A stretch of DNA of 42,421 bases. It comes from Bacteroidota bacterium (GTDB lineage Bacteria > Bacteroidota > Rhodothermia > Rhodothermales > UBA10348). Shown piece after piece: positions 1 to 11,261 of this stretch (within the stretch, counting starts at the first letter, position 1; each line of letters starts with the position of its first letter). The notes under the pieces were generated by a model. It worked only from the letters and a program-made list of their open reading frames with translations, had not been told where the DNA came from and searched no databases. The stretch is taken from positions 1 to 42,421 of the forward strand of contig JAJCYP010000042.1 of assembly GCA_029262855.1 (NCBI GenBank), written 5' to 3'. Both the position numbers and the translations under genes were made by a program.

Positions 1-234
1 ATAAAGCTGCGCCGCCAGGGTCTTGTTGTGACTCATGACCAGAGTCGGGCGGCCAGCCTGTTGGATGACGTTCGAGATCGTGAACGTCTTTCCCGTCCCC
101 GTCGCCCCGAGCAGCGTCTGCTGGCGGTCTCCCCGGTGCAGGCCCTCGATTAATTCGGCGATGGCCTTCGGCTGGTCCCCGGTGGGCGTGAACTCGGATT
201 CAATCTCGAAAGAGGTGGGGACGACAGGCTGCAT
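1..234 (-). CDS. uvrB: UvrABC excinuclease subunit B, N-terminal part (runs off the left edge)
   Basis: This is the first 78 codons of UvrB, the helicase-like subunit that loads onto damaged DNA with UvrA and recruits UvrC in nucleotide excision repair. The translation contains the family start [17 protein letters not shown], then [19 protein letters not shown], which is the Walker A motif, then TISNVIQQ and [11 protein letters not shown], all in the usual order and spacing. The rest of the gene lies outside the window. The start at 234 (ATG) sits just before the conserved region. An in-frame ATG at 294 would add 20 residues (beginning MRLDPTVG); neither start has a clear ribosome binding site. 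The gene is divergent from the FIST remnant at 376. The identity is certain from sequence; the exact start is inferred. Confidence 0.93.
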
Positions 235-375: not shown

Positions 376-620
376 ATGCGCACTACTCAGACCACCTGGT
401 GGCCGGGTGAGGTCTTGCCTTGCGGAGAGGCTCACTGGATCCTCGCCTTCGGCGACCGCGACCAGATTACCCAGGCGTATCCGGCCATCAAGGCCGCCTA
501 TCCCGACGCGGTCATCGTATCCAGCTCTACTTCCGGCGAGATCTACGGCACTGAGGTATCGGATAACCGGAACTGCACAATCAGACCATGACCATTACTA
601 CTCTTCGTGAAGCAGCCTGA
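376..620 (+). pseudogene. FIST-domain sensor protein remnant with a large internal deletion
   Basis: FIST proteins are soluble sensors of roughly 380 residues (FIST_N plus FIST_C) encoded next to signalling proteins. Here the reading frame from ATG 376 gives a normal FIST_N start ([12 protein letters not shown], then [34 protein letters not shown]). It then breaks near 564-570. From there a different frame reads [15 protein letters not shown] and stops at TGA 618-620, which is the conserved tail of FIST_C. The two ends of one gene are therefore present and some 250-300 middle codons are gone, with a frame change at the joint; read straight through, the first frame stops at 591. The tail stop is followed after one base by the kinase ATG at 622, the normal junction of an intact pair. 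The deletion is seen directly; whether it is real or an assembly collapse is open. Confidence 0.75.
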
Positions 621-621
621 T

Positions 622-2160
622 ATGCACCGCCTCCTGCGTCGACAGATCCGCAAATACCTCGGGGAGGAGGTGCCTCGGGACCCTGCCCTTTCCGAATTCC
701 TGAGCGCTGTTGATGCCGCGTACGAGCAGTACGACGGGGACCGGAAGATTCTCGAGCGCTCAATGGATCTGAGCTCGGAAGAACTCTATGAGGCCAACGA
801 GCGCCTGCAGGATGAGATGAAAAACCAGGAGTTGGTGCTGTCCCAACTTCGGAATTCGATGCGGTCGCTGCGGAGTGATGAGGATACTTCGGGAGCCGAT
901 GCCCTGTCAGTAAGCCGGCTTCTCCAGGAGCAGATTGGCCTGCGAAACGAGGCGGAGGATGTGCTGCGTCTCGCCAAGGAGGCCGCCGAGGCGGCAAGCC
1001 GTGCAAAGAGTGAGTTTCTGGCCAACATGAGCCACGAGATTCGTACGCCCATGAACGCAGTCATCGGGATGACTGGGCTCTTGGAAGAGACGGATCTGAC
1101 GCCGGAGCAACATGAGATGGTGGAAACCATCCAGTCCGGCGGCGGGGCCCTCCTTTCACTCATAAACGACATTCTTGATCTCTCGAAGATTGAGGCCGGC
1201 AAGCTCAGCCTTGAGTCGACCCGCTTCAATCTGAAGTCGTGCATCACGTCGTCCCTTGATGTCTTCCGGCCGCTTCTGAATGGCGATTCGGTCCGGTTGG
1301 TCATGAACTATCACGATAGCGCGCCCGCGTGGGTGCTCTCCGATGAGACCCGAATCCGTCAGGTCCTGTTCAATCTCGTTGGCAACGCCGTCAAGTTTAC
1401 AACCTCGGGAGAGATCGTGGTGTCGGTATCGTCTCACAGGCGGGACGGACAGGTAGGGTATCACACCTCGGTGAGGGACACCGGAATCGGCATTGAGCCG
1501 GACATGCTCCGAACGATCTTCCAGCCCTTCTCGCAGGTCGAAGACGGGTATACCAGAAGTTCGGGGGGTACGGGACTGGGACTGGCTATAAGCAAACGAC
1601 TCGTGGAGGCCCTGGGTGGTGAGATCTGGGTAGAAAGCACGGTTGGAACTGGAAGCACCTTCCACTTCACGTTTGTCGTTCCGGAGACGGACCAGACGCC
1701 CGAGTCGATCGTCCCAGCGCTGGCTCCGGACAGACCAGCCCGGCCGATCGTCAATGACATTCGAGTCCTGGTGGTCGAGGATAATCCGACCAACCAGAAG
1801 GTGGTATGCCGGCTGCTGGAGCGCGCAGGAGTTGTGGCCGATGTCGTCGAGAATGGCGCTCAGGCCGTGGAGATGGCCAAGACCGAATACTACGAACTCA
1901 TCTTTATGGACGTTCAGATGCCGGTGATGAACGGGCTGGATGCAACGCGGGCCATTCGTGGGCTTGATATCCGACAGCCGCATATCATCGCGCTGACCGC
2001 CAATGCCATGGCTGAGGACCGTATTCGGTGCCGGGACGCCGGGATGGACGAGTACATGAGCAAGCCGATCGTGCTAACGGACCTCAAGAATGCGCTCGCC
2101 AACTACCAGAGTCTGCGGCGGTCGCGACGCAACTCGCTCGGGCAGGCCGAGTGGAGTTAG
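622..2160 (+). CDS. Hybrid sensor histidine kinase of the FIST-associated type
   Basis: This 512-residue cytoplasmic hybrid kinase autophosphorylates on histidine and passes the phosphate to its own receiver. Domains in order: an N-terminal region predicted to be helical (about 1-90; [19 protein letters not shown]) like that of kinases encoded beside FIST genes, a coiled stretch to 130, HisKA with the H-box SHEIRTP (His138), HATPase with NAVKF, DTGIGI and [11 protein letters not shown], and a C-terminal receiver with VLVVEDN, phospho-acceptor Asp430 in FMDVQMP, and the late Lys in SKP. No membrane segment is visible. The ATG at 622 is chosen because it follows the FIST tail stop (TGA 618-620) by one base, implying translational coupling; a GTG at 607 would extend into the FIST tail. 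All catalytic motifs look intact although its probable sensor partner is deleted. Confidence 0.92.
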
Positions 2161-2211
2161 AAACCTACCCTTGCCGGCGGCATCCAACGGGGCCCTAACC
2201 GACCCCTGCGC

Positions 2212-3399
2212 ATGTCCCGCTCTCTCCTGTCTGTCGTCGCCCTCTTCCTGATCGCTGGATGCGCCGCAACCGACGCGCCGCAGACTGTAGCGTCGAGGGG
2301 GGAGTCCCAGCCGGCCCCGTGGATTCTCCCGCCGGATCTGGCAGCCGTCCCAGAGAAGCTGGACGGGATGACCATCGAAGAGTATGAGCCGGTCTCAACC
2401 CTCCGGGTGCCGGGGTTTGGCGTGCCGTCCTCGAAATATCCGTTCGTCGATGTCCACGGGCACTGGTTCCGCGCCGCCGGATTCTCCGCTGGCCAGGTAG
2501 ACACGTTGGTCGCCCAGTTTGATTCGCTCAATTTGGCCGTAAGCGTCAACCTGAGCGGTGGAGCGGGCGACCGACTTCATCGGGCCATTGAGAACACGGA
2601 GGGTCGCCATCCGTCGCGTTTCGTCACGTTCGCGAACGTCAATTTCGACAGCGTTGGCGCGCCAGGGTGGACGGAACGGGCCGTTGCCCAGTTGGAGTCA
2701 GACTTCAACGCAGGGGCTCGCGGGCTGAAGATCTACAAGAATCTCGGCATGGACGTGCGCGACATGTCCGGAAACCGGGTGGCTGTGGATGATTCTCGAT
2801 TGGATCCGATCTGGGCCCTGTGCGGCGAACGCGGGAGGCCGGTGCTGATCCACACAGCGGATCCGGCCATGTTCTGGCAGCCACGAAACAAGCACAACGA
2901 GCGCTGGCTGGAACTGAAACTGCGCTCGCAGCGCTACCGGCCTGCCGACCAATTCCCCCCGTTCGATACAATCATCGGCGAACAGCACGCTCTTTTTTCC
3001 AACCATCCCGGCACCACATTCATCGCGGCACATCTGGGTTGGTTGGGAAGCGACCTTGATCAGCTCGGCGAATTGCTCGACGCCAACCCGAATGTGTACA
3101 CGGAAATCGGAGCGGTGGTGCAGGAACTTGGCCGCCAGCCACGCTATGCGGCCTCCTGGCTGACCAGGTACAAGGATCGGGTTCTGTTCGGGAAGGATTT
3201 CTACAACCCGGTGGAATTCCACACCTACTTCCGGGTGCTCGAGACGGACCACGAGTACTTCCCATACTACCGGAAGTACCACGCATTTTGGCGACTCTAC
3301 GGCCTCGCCCTACCGGACGATGTGCTCCGGGCGATCTACTATGGGAACGCCCTCCGGATCATTCCCGGACTGGACCGCAGCCTGTTTCCTTCGGCCTAA
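2212..3399 (+). CDS. Amidohydrolase-family (Amidohydro_2-like) lipoprotein
   Basis: A 395-residue metal-dependent hydrolase of the TIM-barrel amidohydrolase group, exported as a lipoprotein. The N-terminus is a lipoprotein signal with lipobox LIAGC (Cys17). Candidate metal ligands follow family order: the HxH pair in DVHGHWF (His82, His84), Lys173 in GLKIYKN, His214 in LIHT, His274 in AAHLGW and Asp329 in FGKDF. The substrate cannot be read from sequence. Its stop codon overlaps that of the convergent TonB receptor by 3-4 bases. It lies 51 bp behind the kinase gene on the same strand, with no clear promoter between them. The family call is firm and the reaction unknown. Confidence 0.85.
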   Translation: MSRSLLSVVALFLIAGCAATDAPQTVASRGESQPAPWILPPDLAAVPEKLDGMTIEEYEPVSTLRVPGFGVPSSKYPFVDVHGHWFRAAGFSAGQVDTLVAQFDSLNLAVSVNLSGGAGDRLHRAIENTEGRHPSRFVTFANVNFDSVGAPGWTERAVAQLESDFNAGARGLKIYKNLGMDVRDMSGNRVAVDDSRLDPIWALCGERGRPVLIHTADPAMFWQPRNKHNERWLELKLRSQRYRPADQFPPFDTIIGEQHALFSNHPGTTFIAAHLGWLGSDLDQLGELLDANPNVYTEIGAVVQELGRQPRYAASWLTRYKDRVLFGKDFYNPVEFHTYFRVLETDHEYFPYYRKYHAFWRLYGLALPDDVLRAIYYGNALRIIPGLDRSLFPSA

Positions 3400-5657
3400 C
3401 GGAGTTCCAGCTTCATCCCGACCGACGGGACCACGGGCAGCTGGTCGACGCGCTTGAACGTGAAGAGGTCGAAGTAGAAGAGGTTGTCGCGGTTGAAGAC
3501 GTTGATGGCGCCGGCTCGCAGCGTTCCGACATAGCGACCCCGTTCTATTTTGCGCTGGATGAATACGTCCACCCTGGCGTAGGTCGGCTGGCGCGCGCTG
3601 TTTCGCTCCGCATACAGGATCCGATCGATTCCGGCTTCAGTGGTCACATCCACGTCCGGCGTGAACAGGTACCATTCGTCGAAGCCGGCCGATGGTGTGA
3701 AGGGGAGACCGCTCCCGTACTGCCCCTGGACCGTCAAGCTGACTTCCCCCTTCGACACCGCAAGCGCACCCTGCACGTAGTGACGCCGGTCATGACCCGG
3801 CGTGTAGCTTCCTGATGCGGTCTCGTACTCTACCTTGCCAAGCGAGTAGCTGACCCTCCCGCTGAGCATGGTCTCCTCAATGAACTCGCGCTCATTCAAC
3901 TCCAGGCGAATGTCGGCTCCGTAGGCCTGGCCGTCGGCAGACTCCAGACGAGTCGTAAAGCGGGGAAAGGGGCTGAAAATCGGGACCTGGAGGGAGCTGT
4001 AGTCCTTGTAGTAGCCCTCGATGGCGAGCCGAAAACCGGGAAACGATCCCGACCAGCCCAGAATCGCATGCATCGCCGCAGGCAACTCCGAGCCCGCCTT
4101 TACGGGGGTCCACGCCGTGAATACGTTGCCTATGTCGCGCTCGTCGTTCAGACCGACAATGGCCTGATGGAACAACCCCCAGGATGCTGAGACCGAATGG
4201 TTGCCCGTCACGCTCCACTTCGCTCGAATCCTCGGCTCGATAACCGTCTCGCCGATTTCCGGCACGTTGTAGATGCGAACGCCCGGGTCCAGATCGAGCT
4301 TCTGACTGCGAATGCCGAGTCCCAGATAGGCAGCCGCCTCCGAGACCGTGTGGTGCTGCTGGTTGGGCACCGCTTCGAACTGCCCGGTGAGATTGAATCG
4401 GGTCTGGGTCGACCGGTACAGCCCGCCCATCTGGATCTCGGAAGACCCGAGAAACCAGATGATGTCCAGCTTGCCTTCCATGCTCTCTATGGTTGACTCC
4501 CTTTCCGGGTTTCCCGCGGGGCCGAAGTCCTGATCCGAGCCTGAGTAGCCGCCCGTAAGCGTCATCTTCGCGGGCAATCGGCCCGGGAGAATCTGATAGC
4601 GCGCCCCAATGGTGCGATTGGTCCATGCAATGCGACTCGAATCCGTATCCGCGGTCGAGACCGCATCGCCAAGGAAGGTCTTCTGGGTAGCGGAGAGATC
4701 ACCACGATCAAATGTGCTCAGTCCTGTGATCGACAGGCTCTGGCGGTTGCCGATCAAGGCGTGGATCTTCCCAAAGGCGTCTCCAAAACCATAGGCCATT
4801 CGCTGCCCAAATACCTCCGGAGTCAACTCCTCAACGAGTGATCGACGGCCCGACAACAGAAAAGACACCCGGCCGGGGACGATGGGCCCCTCCACGCGCA
4901 GACCGCTGAGGAATGGAGCCAGCGCCACGGCGCCGGCGATGTTCTGCTTGTTACCATTTCGAGCCGTGACGTCCATCACCGAGGACATCCGCTCCCCGTA
5001 CGCCGCGCCGTAGCCCCCTGTGTACAGATCCACCCCGTCTATGATTTCCTCAGGAAAGGCGGAGAAGAACGACAACACGTGGAGTGGAGCATAGACGGGG
5101 ATTCCGTCCAACAGCACCTGATTCTGATCGGGTGCACCCCCGCGAATGTGAAACTGCCCACCACGGTCTCCAGGGAGCACGACGCCCGGCACCGTCTGCA
5201 AATAGGCGGCAAGGTCTCCGGACACGCCCGGGATCGGCACTCGGTCGACATCCGCTGGACGGATGGTCTCGAGACCTGCGGCCACCGCGGTGATTCCTGA
5301 CTCCGCCTCTGCAATCACGAGCGCCTCTCCAAGCACGCCCTCGGCCTCCTCCAGGGTCACCGAAATGCTTCGGACTTGACCTGCCCGCAACGCGACCTGC
5401 TCTTCGTGCGTCTCGTACCCGACGAACGACACCCGCAGGCCATACTCTCCGGCGGCCACTCGCGTAAACGCGAAGAAGCCGTCACCATCGGTGGCCTGTC
5501 CAAAGACCTGTCCGGATGCCGAGGTGAGAACGACTGTCGCTCCCTGCAGCGCCGTCTCGGACGAGCCGTCTGTCACAAAGCCGCGCAGACCGGAATTCTG
5601 GGCAAGGGCCGGCAGCGTTGTTAAGGCCAGACAGAGGCAGGCGAATAATAGGCGCAT
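3396..5657 (-). CDS. TonB-dependent outer-membrane receptor
   Basis: A 753-residue outer-membrane active transporter driven by TonB-ExbBD. The start at 5657 gives a clean Sec signal (MRLLFACLCLALTTLPALAQ), so the in-frame codons up to 5702 are probably not used. After the signal comes a carboxypeptidase-regulatory-like beta-sandwich (about 24-100; GLRGFVTDGSSETALQGATV), then the plug (about 125-235; LQTVPGVVLPGDRGGQFHIRGG, LLDGIPVY, YGAAYGERMSSVMDV), then a long beta-barrel ending in an aromatic-poor LELR tail. No partner SusD lipoprotein is adjacent, so a siderophore, cofactor or peptide ligand is as likely as a glycan; the substrate is unknown. It is downstream of hisIE on the same strand with a 111-bp gap, so it may have its own promoter. 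Confidence 0.92.
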   Translation of the reverse strand: MRLLFACLCLALTTLPALAQNSGLRGFVTDGSSETALQGATVVLTSASGQVFGQATDGDGFFAFTRVAAGEYGLRVSFVGYETHEEQVALRAGQVRSISVTLEEAEGVLGEALVIAEAESGITAVAAGLETIRPADVDRVPIPGVSGDLAAYLQTVPGVVLPGDRGGQFHIRGGAPDQNQVLLDGIPVYAPLHVLSFFSAFPEEIIDGVDLYTGGYGAAYGERMSSVMDVTARNGNKQNIAGAVALAPFLSGLRVEGPIVPGRVSFLLSGRRSLVEELTPEVFGQRMAYGFGDAFGKIHALIGNRQSLSITGLSTFDRGDLSATQKTFLGDAVSTADTDSSRIAWTNRTIGARYQILPGRLPAKMTLTGGYSGSDQDFGPAGNPERESTIESMEGKLDIIWFLGSSEIQMGGLYRSTQTRFNLTGQFEAVPNQQHHTVSEAAAYLGLGIRSQKLDLDPGVRIYNVPEIGETVIEPRIRAKWSVTGNHSVSASWGLFHQAIVGLNDERDIGNVFTAWTPVKAGSELPAAMHAILGWSGSFPGFRLAIEGYYKDYSSLQVPIFSPFPRFTTRLESADGQAYGADIRLELNEREFIEETMLSGRVSYSLGKVEYETASGSYTPGHDRRHYVQGALAVSKGEVSLTVQGQYGSGLPFTPSAGFDEWYLFTPDVDVTTEAGIDRILYAERNSARQPTYARVDVFIQRKIERGRYVGTLRAGAINVFNRDNLFYFDLFTFKRVDQLPVVPSVGMKLELR

Positions 5658-7698: not shown

Positions 7699-9882
7699 AT
7701 GGCCCGACCACGAGCAGGCGGCGGATGGCCCGCCATTGCGTATTCGTTCCGGAAAGCCCGCGAAGCCGGGGGATTCCGGAAACTCTGGACTGCGATGCGG
7801 TCCCGCAACGCCTGCAAGACCTGTGCAGTCGGAATGGGTGGCCAACGCGGCGGCATGGTCGACGAGACCGGCCATTTTCCGGAGGTCTGCAAGAAGAGCC
7901 TCCAGGCCATGGTGGCCGACATGCAGCCTGCCATCCCGTCTGACTTCTGGCATCGGCGGCCGATTGGCCGGCTCCGCCAGATGACCCCCCGCGAACTCGA
8001 GAACGCCGGCCGGCTCGCCCACCCGATCCTCTACACCCGCGAATCGGGGCACTACGAGGCGGTCTCCTGGGAGCGAGCACTCGGGCTCATTGCCGACAAA
8101 CTCAAGGCGACGCTTCCGGAAAAGACATTCTGGTACTTTTCGGGCCGGAGCTCAAACGAGGCCGGGTTTCTCCTGCAGCTCTTCGCCCGCCTCTACGGCA
8201 CCAACAACGTCAACAACTGCTCCTACTACTGTCATCAGGCCAGCGGAGCCGGCCTCTCAAGCTCCATCGGAACCGGGACGGCGACGCTGGTTCTGGAGGA
8301 CCTGGACAAGTCCGACCTGGTGTTCCTGATCGGAGCCAACCCGGCATCCAACCACCCGCGTCTCCTGGAGACGCTCCGGCGAGTTCGAAAGCGGGGTGGC
8401 GACGTCATCGTCATCAATCCGCTGCGCGAGCCCGGCCTGGAGACGTTTCATGTGCCCAGTCGCCCTCTGAGCCTGCTCTTTGGCTCCGAGATCGCGTCCA
8501 GTTTCGTTCAGCCTCACATCGGCGGAGATCTCTCGCTGCTTACCGCGATTGCCAAGCGGGTCGTGGAGCTGGAGGCCCACGAAGCCAACTTCGTCGCGCT
8601 TCGGTGCGCGGGGTGGAGTGGATGGGCCGATGCGCTGGCAAGGTGGGAGTGGGACGATCTCTGCGCCTCTTCCGGAGTGGACTTCGCGACCATCGATCGC
8701 GTGGCGAGGCGCTACGCGGAGTCCAAGTACACCGTGTTCGCCTGGGCGATGGGCATCACGCATCACGCAAACGGCGTGGAGAACGTGCAGGCCATCGCCA
8801 ATCTCGCGTTGCTGCGCGGAATGGTCGGGAAGCCCGGGGCCGGCCTGATGCCGATTCGCGGACACTCCAACGTGCAGGGCATGGGATCGGTGGGCGTTAC
8901 ACCCGCGCTCAAGAAGGCGGTTTTCGATGCACTGGAGTCCCGACTGGATGTGTCGCTGCCGACGGAGGTCGGGCTGGACACCATGGCCTGCATGGAGGCC
9001 TCGGCGGACGGGGCCATGAAGGTTGGCGTTTGTCTGGGAGGCAACCTGTACGGATCAAATCCGGACTCGGCCTTCGCGGCCGCCGCGATGAGAAACCTCG
9101 AGTTGTCTGTCTACTTGAGTACCACGCTGAACACCGGCCACGCCTGGGGTGTCGGCAAACAATGCATCATTCTCCCGGTGATGGCCAGGGATGAGGAGCC
9201 CGAAGCCACCACACAGGAGTCGATGTTCAATTTCGTCCGACTCAGTGACGGAGGTCCCGCACGCCTTGATGGCCCACGAAGCGAAGTCCAGGTCATTGCA
9301 GACCTCGCGGAACGCGTGTTGGACCACTCGGCCCCGGTTGACTTCGGATCGATGCGTTCGACGCGGAATATCCGAAAGCACATCGGCGCCGTGATCCCTG
9401 GATACTCCGCAATCGGCGGGATTGACGAGTCAAAGGTGGAGTTCCAGATCGAGGGTCGAACACTTCATGAGCCGGTGTTTCCGACCGAGGACGGATTGGC
9501 ACGCCTTCATGTTCATGCGTCGATGGGCGGGCCGCCACCCGAATCCGGCGAGCTCCGCCTGATGACGATTCGGAGCGAGGGCCAGTTCAACACGGTGGTG
9601 TACGAAGAGGAGGATCTGTATCGGGGCATTTCCGCTCGCGATGTGGTCCTGCTGCACCCTGCCGATTTGGCATCCGCGTCACTCGAGTCCGGGGACCGAG
9701 TGGCGGTCCATGGCCCGGCCGGCAGCATGGCGCCGGTGACTGCGATTTCCTTCGAGCGACTCCGGCCCGGCAGCGCAGCCATGTACTTTCCTGAGGCCAA
9801 CCGACTGCTGAGTCGCGAGGTCGACCCGAAAAGCCGGACACCCGCCTTCAAGGGTGCACGGATCAGACTGGAGGCGCTTTGA
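7699..9882 (+). CDS. FdhF/YdeP-family molybdopterin oxidoreductase
   Basis: A 727-residue member of the formate-dehydrogenase-H-like molybdopterin family, the YdeP branch. It should bind bis-MGD in the cytoplasm; the physiological substrate of this branch is not established. Seen in the sequence: the YdeP-type N-terminus (RNACKTCAVGMGGQRGGMVDE, FPEVCKKSLQA), the molybdopterin domain with NNVNNCSYYCHQAS, where Cys178 occupies the place of the selenocysteine of E. coli FdhF, LIGANPASNHPR, RGHSNVQGMGS, and the C-terminal molydop-binding domain (LRLMTIRSEGQFNTVVY). The ATG at 7699 is supported because the family's N-terminal residues begin right after it. No signal peptide is present. The downstream M24 gene overlaps its stop. 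Confidence 0.88.
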   Translation: MARPRAGGGWPAIAYSFRKAREAGGFRKLWTAMRSRNACKTCAVGMGGQRGGMVDETGHFPEVCKKSLQAMVADMQPAIPSDFWHRRPIGRLRQMTPRELENAGRLAHPILYTRESGHYEAVSWERALGLIADKLKATLPEKTFWYFSGRSSNEAGFLLQLFARLYGTNNVNNCSYYCHQASGAGLSSSIGTGTATLVLEDLDKSDLVFLIGANPASNHPRLLETLRRVRKRGGDVIVINPLREPGLETFHVPSRPLSLLFGSEIASSFVQPHIGGDLSLLTAIAKRVVELEAHEANFVALRCAGWSGWADALARWEWDDLCASSGVDFATIDRVARRYAESKYTVFAWAMGITHHANGVENVQAIANLALLRGMVGKPGAGLMPIRGHSNVQGMGSVGVTPALKKAVFDALESRLDVSLPTEVGLDTMACMEASADGAMKVGVCLGGNLYGSNPDSAFAAAAMRNLELSVYLSTTLNTGHAWGVGKQCIILPVMARDEEPEATTQESMFNFVRLSDGGPARLDGPRSEVQVIADLAERVLDHSAPVDFGSMRSTRNIRKHIGAVIPGYSAIGGIDESKVEFQIEGRTLHEPVFPTEDGLARLHVHASMGGPPPESGELRLMTIRSEGQFNTVVYEEEDLYRGISARDVVLLHPADLASASLESGDRVAVHGPAGSMAPVTAISFERLRPGSAAMYFPEANRLLSREVDPKSRTPAFKGARIRLEAL

Positions 9883-11261
9883 AGTCGCGCATTGCTTTAC
9901 GTGTTGGACTGACCGGGCTGTTGTTCCTCTGGGGGTGTGGGCAGACGCCTGAATCGTCCATGCCCTCGGAGATTCGGGTCTTGGCTGCCCCAACGCGAGC
10001 CGAACTGAATGCCCGCCGAAGCCAACTCATGACCGCTCATCGGGACGGGCTCATTCTCATTCCCGGGAATGGAGCGGAAAAGGGAATGACAGATCCTGGC
10101 TGGATGCAGGCTCCGACGTTTCAGTACTTCTCGGGGTTGGCCCATCTGCCCGGTGCCTTACTGGTCCTCGACCCGGCCACAAACGAAACCACGCTTTTCA
10201 CCGGCCCGGCTCCTGCCGCCTTTGGAGTACCGATCTCGTCGCTGGATGCCGGCCTGCATCCAGAGATCGCCGCCGGCGCGTATGCCGATCAGGTCCTTTC
10301 CTCCGCGGTGTTAGCGGGCTGGATGTCGGATCGCCTCCCCGGGGTCAACTCCGTGATTTATCTGGATTCCCCACGTAGGCCCGAACCCACCGGCGTGCCG
10401 GAAGGGATGCTGCCTGTCCTGGGATTCCACGCGCTGTGGGAGCAGAGTCTGCGGGATTCCTACCCAGATGCCGAAGTCCGTTCCATGGCCGAAACCGTGC
10501 GCAGGCTTCGGTGGGTAAAGTCTGACTCCGAGATTGTCGAACTCCGTCGAAACGCCGTGGCGACGGCCCATGCGCTTGGCGAGGGAATGCGAGCGGTCGG
10601 GGTGGGCGTCAGCCAGCGCAGCGCCGAGGCGGCGGTCGTCGCAGGTTGTCTGGCGGCCGGTGCTGAGGGCCCTTCCTTCTGGCCCTGGATGATGGTTGGG
10701 CCCAACGGCGGGTTTGGTCGTCTGGTCCAGTCGTTCTTTGACTATTCCAGCCTGAATCGAGTCATGGAAGCAGGGCAACTCGTTCGCGCCGATGTAGGCT
10801 GCCAGGGTGGCGGATATGGCGGCGATGTGGGACGCACCGTTCCCGTCAGCGGCGCCTTCACGCCGGCGCAGGCGCGGGTCTGGGACCTGTTGATCGAGGG
10901 ATATCTGGCGGGACTCGAGGCCATGCGGCCGGGACTGCCCCTGGATTCGGTTCGTGCCGCCAGTCGAAAACGCATCGCCGAAGGCGGATCAGAAGACCCA
11001 TCGCTCGCCGAATTGGCCTTAGCGTTCAATGCCGAGACCGGCGTGGACTGGCACATTCACGGTGTAGGGATTGAGAGTGGCGAGACTCCTGGCGGCCAGC
11101 TGGAGGCCGGGGTCGTTCTGGCGTACGAGCCGATGATTGTCATCGGGGACGACGCGTTCTATCTGGAGGACATGGTCGTGATCACGGCGACGGGAGCCGA
11201 GGTACTGAGCACCGGTCTGCCCTACTCGGCCGCCGAAATGGCGGCGTTTCTGGCGCGCTAG
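9879..11261 (+). CDS. M24-family (Xaa-Pro aminopeptidase-like) lipoprotein
   Basis: A 460-residue pita-bread metallopeptidase relative exported as a lipoprotein (lipobox LFLWGC, Cys20). The N-terminal creatinase-like domain (about 38-200) is followed by a C-terminal domain with the five dinuclear metal ligands in family order: Asp305, Asp316, His394 (in WHIHGVG), Glu417 (AYEP) and Glu430 (LED). It should therefore be catalytically competent, probably removing N-terminal residues before proline from peptides in the envelope. The start is a TTG at 9879 that overlaps the TGA of the oxidoreductase gene (TTTGA), implying coupled translation. Its stop overlaps that of the convergent transporter gene by 3-4 bases. 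The exact substrate is inferred. Confidence 0.88.
   Translation: MKSRIALRVGLTGLLFLWGCGQTPESSMPSEIRVLAAPTRAELNARRSQLMTAHRDGLILIPGNGAEKGMTDPGWMQAPTFQYFSGLAHLPGALLVLDPATNETTLFTGPAPAAFGVPISSLDAGLHPEIAAGAYADQVLSSAVLAGWMSDRLPGVNSVIYLDSPRRPEPTGVPEGMLPVLGFHALWEQSLRDSYPDAEVRSMAETVRRLRWVKSDSEIVELRRNAVATAHALGEGMRAVGVGVSQRSAEAAVVAGCLAAGAEGPSFWPWMMVGPNGGFGRLVQSFFDYSSLNRVMEAGQLVRADVGCQGGGYGGDVGRTVPVSGAFTPAQARVWDLLIEGYLAGLEAMRPGLPLDSVRAASRKRIAEGGSEDPSLAELALAFNAETGVDWHIHGVGIESGETPGGQLEAGVVLAYEPMIVIGDDAFYLEDMVVITATGAEVLSTGLPYSAAEMAAFLAR

Follow-up and report, generated by a model that had tools for sequence, protein, structure and literature searches.

Near the start of the stretch of DNA analysed here (the window, all 42,421 nucleotides of contig C42 of the Bacteroidota assembly G000), the two ends of a FIST sensor gene lie joined directly before the gene of a hybrid histidine kinase. 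This arrangement raises the question of whether the middle of the sensor gene has really been lost and, if it has, what has become of the control of its partner kinase. A first-pass annotation had described a FIST gene collapsed in place, with its head, its tail and the neighbouring kinase preserved, and had left the choice between a kinase escaping sensor control and an assembly collapse. We compared the locus with those of two congeners, G001 (88% complete) and G002; the assembly that holds the window comprises 4.74 Mb in 146 contigs and is 98.95% complete, with 4.29% estimated contamination. In the reading that we favor, at a probability of roughly 0.6, a unit of FIST protein and hybrid histidine kinase has truly lost both of its sensory modules, has done so recently, and now has a kinase uncoupled from them.

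Only the two ends of the FIST gene are present

In both congeners, an intact FIST gene (369 codons for the protein in G001, 370 in G002) lies directly before the orthologous kinase gene, and the remnant in the window occupies that same place between kinase and uvrB, the latter on the minus strand (Table 1). The intact genes back the proposal of an in-place internal loss with both ends kept. The head of the remnant corresponds to the first 64–65 codons of the gene (376–569) and its product starts MRTTQTTWW. Residues 22–64 match the Pfam FIST N profile with an E value of 2.5e-4 and 21.4 bits, slightly below the curated cut-off of 23.2, and cover only profile positions 3–47 of 189; the intact relatives score 138–148 bits. 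A search with the G001 FIST protein recovers the head at 67% identity across residues 3–66 (E 4.4e-22). The tail holds the last 16 FIST codons and the stop, and all 16 of its residues are identical to the C-termini of both congeners' proteins. These likenesses at either end, together with the shared position between uvrB and kinase, identify the remnant, on sequence comparison, as a descendant of a FIST gene.

The annotated joining of head and tail of one FIST gene in different frames is borne out: the head contains no stop of its own, and its frame runs through the junction to end at 591 after 71 residues. The assignment of the tail to FIST_C did not survive a search against FIST families. 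In the intact proteins the Pfam FIST_C match spans residues 210–346 of 369 (G001, 126 bits) and 210–347 of 370 (G002, 141 bits) and thus ends before the tail, which at 16 residues is also too short for the profile scanner; alignment to G001 and G002 nonetheless shows it to be the conserved C-terminal end of this FIST protein. The tail stop (TGA, 618–620) is, as had been noted, separated by one base from the kinase ATG at 622, and G002 also has a single base there; in G001 the two codons share one base.

Alignment with the intact pairs placed the breakpoint at 569/570. Relative to G002 868 bp are missing, and relative to G001 865 bp, both 1 mod 3 and equivalent to about 289 codons, which falls within the 250–300 proposed; size and breakpoint are estimates, made against relatives and not against the ancestral sequence. 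The missing part takes in the whole of FIST_C and the greater part of FIST N. Microhomology at the junction amounts to one base (the G at 570), and neither G001 nor G002 has a longer common stretch at the borders, and a repeat-mediated deletion was rejected on these grounds. Profile searches of the G000 assembly returned no FIST_C match at E values up to 10 and no further FIST match up to an E value of 0.001, and the G001 FIST protein matched the head alone. The searches thus revealed no intact FIST gene in this assembly, and neither a further copy nor the missing middle on another contig. G001 and G002 each gave one FIST_C match, both above the cut-off. No relative of known structure was found by sequence for G001 FIST at E values up to 1.

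Table 1. Features of the locus, with window positions unless another contig is named
Feature	Position	Strand	Remark
uvrB, 5′ part	1–234	−	Divergent neighbour, truncated where the contig ends; start codon assigned by comparison with relatives
First 141 bp, identical to the end of contig C53 (G000:C53:22455-22595)	1–141		
FIST remnant ORF, 71 codons	376–591	+	FIST N-terminus to ~569, then a few out-of-frame tail codons and TGA
Deletion junction in the FIST gene	569–570		G at 570 assignable to either side
FIST C-terminal tail and stop	570–620	+	Frame differs from that of the head
Putative reinitiation mini-ORF, 10 residues	588–620	+	From sequence; function putative
Hybrid histidine kinase (512 aa) lacking a PAS domain	622–2160	+	Domain scan
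Kinase N-terminal helical region, common to FIST-neighbouring kinases of the order	622–936	+	
PAS-loss junction	931–969	+	Counterpart of both G002 linkers flanking PAS
HisKA domain	1003–1200	+	Pfam scan
HATPase_c domain	1342–1674	+	Pfam scan
Receiver (Response_reg) domain	1765–2097	+	Pfam scan
nirK match	G000:C115:49004-49906 (locus L165, ORF 8903-10315)		Above the copper nitrite reductase family cut-off

The adjoining kinase lacks the PAS domain of its relatives

The annotation of the kinase as intact proved wrong. In G002 the kinase is 633 residues long and carries PAS at 123–230 (Pfam PAS, 61 bits); the window kinase is 512 residues long, and no PAS family matches it at E values up to 10. 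When the two are aligned, 123 residues are absent from the window kinase in frame, between similar EDALR/EEALR linkers. The linkers that flank PAS in G002 resemble each other, and the window keeps one copy (931–969). A PAS-like stretch is found by alignment at the same place in G044, from another family of the order, and since PAS is thus present in G002 and, by alignment, in G044, its absence from the window kinase is most simply a loss. The G001 kinase is interrupted within the PAS region, its two parts lying at contig ends, and its PAS domain is seen at its two ends only. A search for the ortholog's PAS domain elsewhere in the G000 assembly gave a best match of 34% identity and 38 bits, located inside other open frames. 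In a structure model of the window kinase, one helix (91–154) passes through the PAS-loss junction into HisKA, to which we attach little weight at a pLDDT of 54–62 for the block and a pTM of 0.36.

Read from these comparisons, the in-frame loss of PAS and the loss of ~868 bp inside the FIST gene both appear to have taken place in the window's lineage. Their junctions are ~360 bp apart, placing two losses within 400 bp. The double loss is gene decay and not a new kind of system; this type of event is known, though its occurrence twice in one unit is unusual. Internal deletion is an ordinary route to pseudogenization of sensor genes, with a frameshift, minimal microhomology and the flanking genes left in place. 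The FIST loss in the window is like this in all three respects; what differs is that the partner kinase has also lost its own sensory domain, in frame.

The losses appear local and the remnants show no clear decay

A large part of the contig runs collinear with G002. We compared the window with 85 G002 ORFs of at least 130 codons in a 60-kb stretch that ends before the window does, excluding approximately the last 2 kb of the window; 50 matched the window and 35 had no match. At least 90% coverage at 50% identity or more was found for 27 of the 50. Among the 23 others, identity reached at least 60% in five: FIST, the kinase, uvrB, which the contig edge cuts, and the pair g75 and g76, which are shortened solely at the N-terminus. 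The other 18, with matches below 60% identity, were taken for antisense or paralogous matches on the basis of position and identity. No other internally shortened ortholog was seen among the testable G002 ORFs in this unfiltered comparison, in which genes reduced below detection are invisible. Elsewhere in the window, ~9883–11260 has no counterpart in the collinear G002 region, where the two orthologs flanking it abut.

Both pieces of the FIST gene still differ from their relatives in the manner of coding sequence. Over 57 codons of the head, differences from G002 number 13, 7, and 36 at codon positions 1, 2, and 3, and in the tail they number 1, 0, and 8 (8 of 9 at third positions). The head has a pN of 0.22 against both relatives at a pS of 0.71–0.76, and the intact pair G001–G002 has values of 0.195 and 0.60 over the same region (58 codons); for the kinase core, pN is 0.14–0.20 at a pS of 0.69 against the relatives, and 0.18 and 0.65 between them. 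These ratios are rough, as synonymous sites are near saturation. As head and tail show no clear decay and resemble coding sequence under constraint, the FIST loss would be recent, if it is not an artefact.

Possible assembly error or decay of the whole unit

Recent deletion and assembly artefact look alike in sequence, and the preservation of head and tail is equally expected if chimeric reads or a strain mixture produced one or both deletions and the real genome carries an intact FIST gene and PAS domain. We consider this unlikely, though several properties of the assembly keep it in play: only this one genome of the species was seen, it is in 146 contigs with 4.29% estimated contamination, and the contig ends 569 bp from the FIST junction. 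It also appears to be a short-read assembly, the exact 141-bp overlap between contigs suggesting a de Bruijn graph with k = 141. Because the first 141 bp of the window equal the end of C53 exactly, the graph branched in uvrB, at least 428 bp from the junction. Against these points, the FIST junction offers no repeat that an assembler could collapse (1 bp), and the sole direct repeat reported in 300–1100 is 15 nt at 80% identity and located elsewhere. The missing parts of FIST and PAS, moreover, were not found in the assembly, and an artefact would presuppose that two independent errors arose less than 400 bp apart and that one of them kept the frame and fell on a domain boundary. An assembly collapse of the FIST gene, the alternative raised in the first-pass annotation, is thereby made less likely. 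Contigs C42 and C53 overlap inside uvrB, the rest of which lies on C53, and they are probably neighbours in the genome.

The state of the kinase bears on a second alternative, that the whole unit is dying, with a functionless kinase also heading for loss and nothing left to escape control. Deletions in two adjacent genes and the disappearance of the sensor are in keeping with this, and relaxed selection would not show yet if the loss were very recent. However, the kinase frame is fully open, and HisKA (79.6 bits), HATPase_c (110.6), and the receiver (94.9) all score above cut-off and near their G002 counterparts; the kinase core has, in addition, low nonsynonymous divergence at the pN and pS given above, and the PAS loss preserved the frame. 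We therefore regard a dying unit as quite improbable. That the 71-residue head peptide (376–591) is a new small gene product still binding or regulating the kinase is very improbable indeed: its frame is open, its start is kept and the head has no stop, yet it retains only FIST N profile positions 3–47 of 189 and nothing of FIST_C, takes its final residues from a shifted frame, and has no other N-terminal-only counterpart among the 29 FIST matches listed.

Predicted consequences for the kinase

If both modules have truly been lost, as we favor, the anatomy of the locus suggests how the present state may have arisen. A deletion that removed ~868 bp from within the FIST gene, its borders sharing almost no homology, would have destroyed the sensor protein while sparing the upstream region as well as the 51 bp at the 3′ end of the gene that lead up to the kinase start; PAS would have been lost in frame between the similar helical linkers that flank the domain. 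Since the upstream region of the FIST gene and its 3′ end, the leader of the kinase, are kept, the kinase can probably still be made, and its translation may be aided by the ATGA overlap at 588–591. In the alignment before the kinase start, G001 has AGGGAGG and the window GTGAAG, both putative ribosome-binding sites. At the ATGA, the remnant head ORF stops on bases shared with an ATG in the frame of the tail, and the mini-ORF begun there ends 1 base before the kinase start.

With its restraining FIST partner gone, the kinase would run at its own basal rate, uncoupled from both the FIST ligand and the PAS signal. Such uncoupling is the likely result because FIST partners restrain kinases of this sort elsewhere. 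In Burkholderia pseudomallei, as described in PMC12570481, the FIST protein NosP binds the neighbouring kinase NosK, described there as having no recognised sensory domain, and lowers its autophosphorylation, more so with a nitric oxide (NO) donor; the same account has NO relieving inhibition in some other species. In Pseudomonas aeruginosa, NosP is described as an inhibitor of its co-cistronic kinase NahK (PMC11784011). The idea of a kinase escaping sensor control, put forward in the first-pass annotation, may thus be right, in that it fits both the anatomy and the NosP/NosK literature. A kinase that is always on may nevertheless be too simple a picture, because B. pseudomallei is reported to show similar phenotypes whether it has lost the FIST partner or the kinase (PMC12570481). 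Nor need the absence of PAS mean lost control, since G089 pairs a PAS-less kinase (by alignment) with an adjoining intact FIST gene.

The comparison with these systems has limits. The intact pairs of G001 and G002, like NosP–NosK and NosP–NahK of Burkholderia and Pseudomonas, have the FIST gene directly before a histidine kinase gene, and the C-terminal half of the kinase resembles the NCBIfam model near_NosP_CTERM. Unlike the NosP partners, the kinases score far below the cut-offs, with 179.8 bits (window) and 191.6 bits (G002) of 400 for near_NosP_CTERM and 132 of 1500 for NahK (window kinase). The intact FIST proteins of G001 and G002 likewise reach 50.1 and 57.0 bits on the NosP model (NCBIfam NF041558) against a cut-off of 450, and the window head has no match to that model. 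As the relatives' FIST proteins and kinases fall below the NosP, NahK, and near-NosP cut-offs, a NosP–NosK mode of action is an analogy, and unlike in that system the FIST gene of the window is broken. Compared by description, the locus also resembles VpsV–VpsS of Vibrio cholerae, where, in the account of PMC4398556, a FIST protein is encoded upstream of a cytoplasmic kinase without an obvious membrane span and the signal was not known. On an Azospirillum oryzae plasmid (NZ_CP054620.1), a FIST gene whose product is 43% identical to that of G001 over 99% of the latter is followed after 4 bp by a gene for a PAS S-box protein and then by a response regulator gene; unlike in the window, these genes are annotated whole, and the PAS protein far exceeds the window kinase in length.

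If real, the locus amounts to a natural experiment: a sensory kinase has been deprived of both its partner sensor and its internal sensor and yet keeps the catalytic chain. Comparing it with the intact pairs of its congeners would reveal what FIST and PAS each contribute to the kinase, in bacteria other than the proteobacteria to which the NosP papers cited here refer.

A possible connection to nitric oxide

A match to NirK (copper nitrite reductase) above the family cut-off, at 363 bits, was found in G000 only among the four genomes G000, G001, G002, and G044, all of which have NosZ (N2O reductase) above cut-off. Contamination of the nirK stretch, though conceivable, is not suggested by its composition: its tetranucleotide correlation with the window is 0.984 and its GC content 0.62, compared with 0.615. 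Among the three congeners, G000 alone has a NirK match above cut-off, which may let it make NO itself, and alone lacks both sensors, FIST and PAS. Were the FIST partner to sense NO in the manner of NosP, NO of the cell's own making would restrain the kinase and render an NO-operated brake costly, and the two input losses would free it. An adaptive double disarming of this kind is improbable and no more than a lead, with one genome set against two, one of those 88% complete.

FIST–kinase pairing across the order

The G001 FIST protein finds matches (E up to 0.001) in 20 of 114 genomes, and the kinase N-terminal region in 10. Immediately before the kinase, a FIST match of at least 300 bits is present in six of these 10 (G001, G002, G044, G050, G072, and G089), G000 has the remnant, and three (G052, G057, and G100) have the kinase N-terminal match with no FIST match; in G100 the kinase-region match reaches only E 4.9e-4 and belongs, by eye, to another kind of protein. 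A further 13 genomes have distant FIST matches only (38–120 bits) and no such kinase. Given these 13 and the three kinases with no FIST match, the pairing is not universal. None of the 29 FIST matches listed, besides that of the window, is confined to the N-terminal part of the protein. In the literature library searched, we found no paper on the FIST domain in Rhodothermales and nothing pertinent on sensor loss. In G057, one of the genomes with no FIST match, a kinase with a similar N-terminal region lies on the minus strand of locus L161 (G057:C94) at ~1765–4125, and the gene upstream of it is, by eye, MaoC-like.
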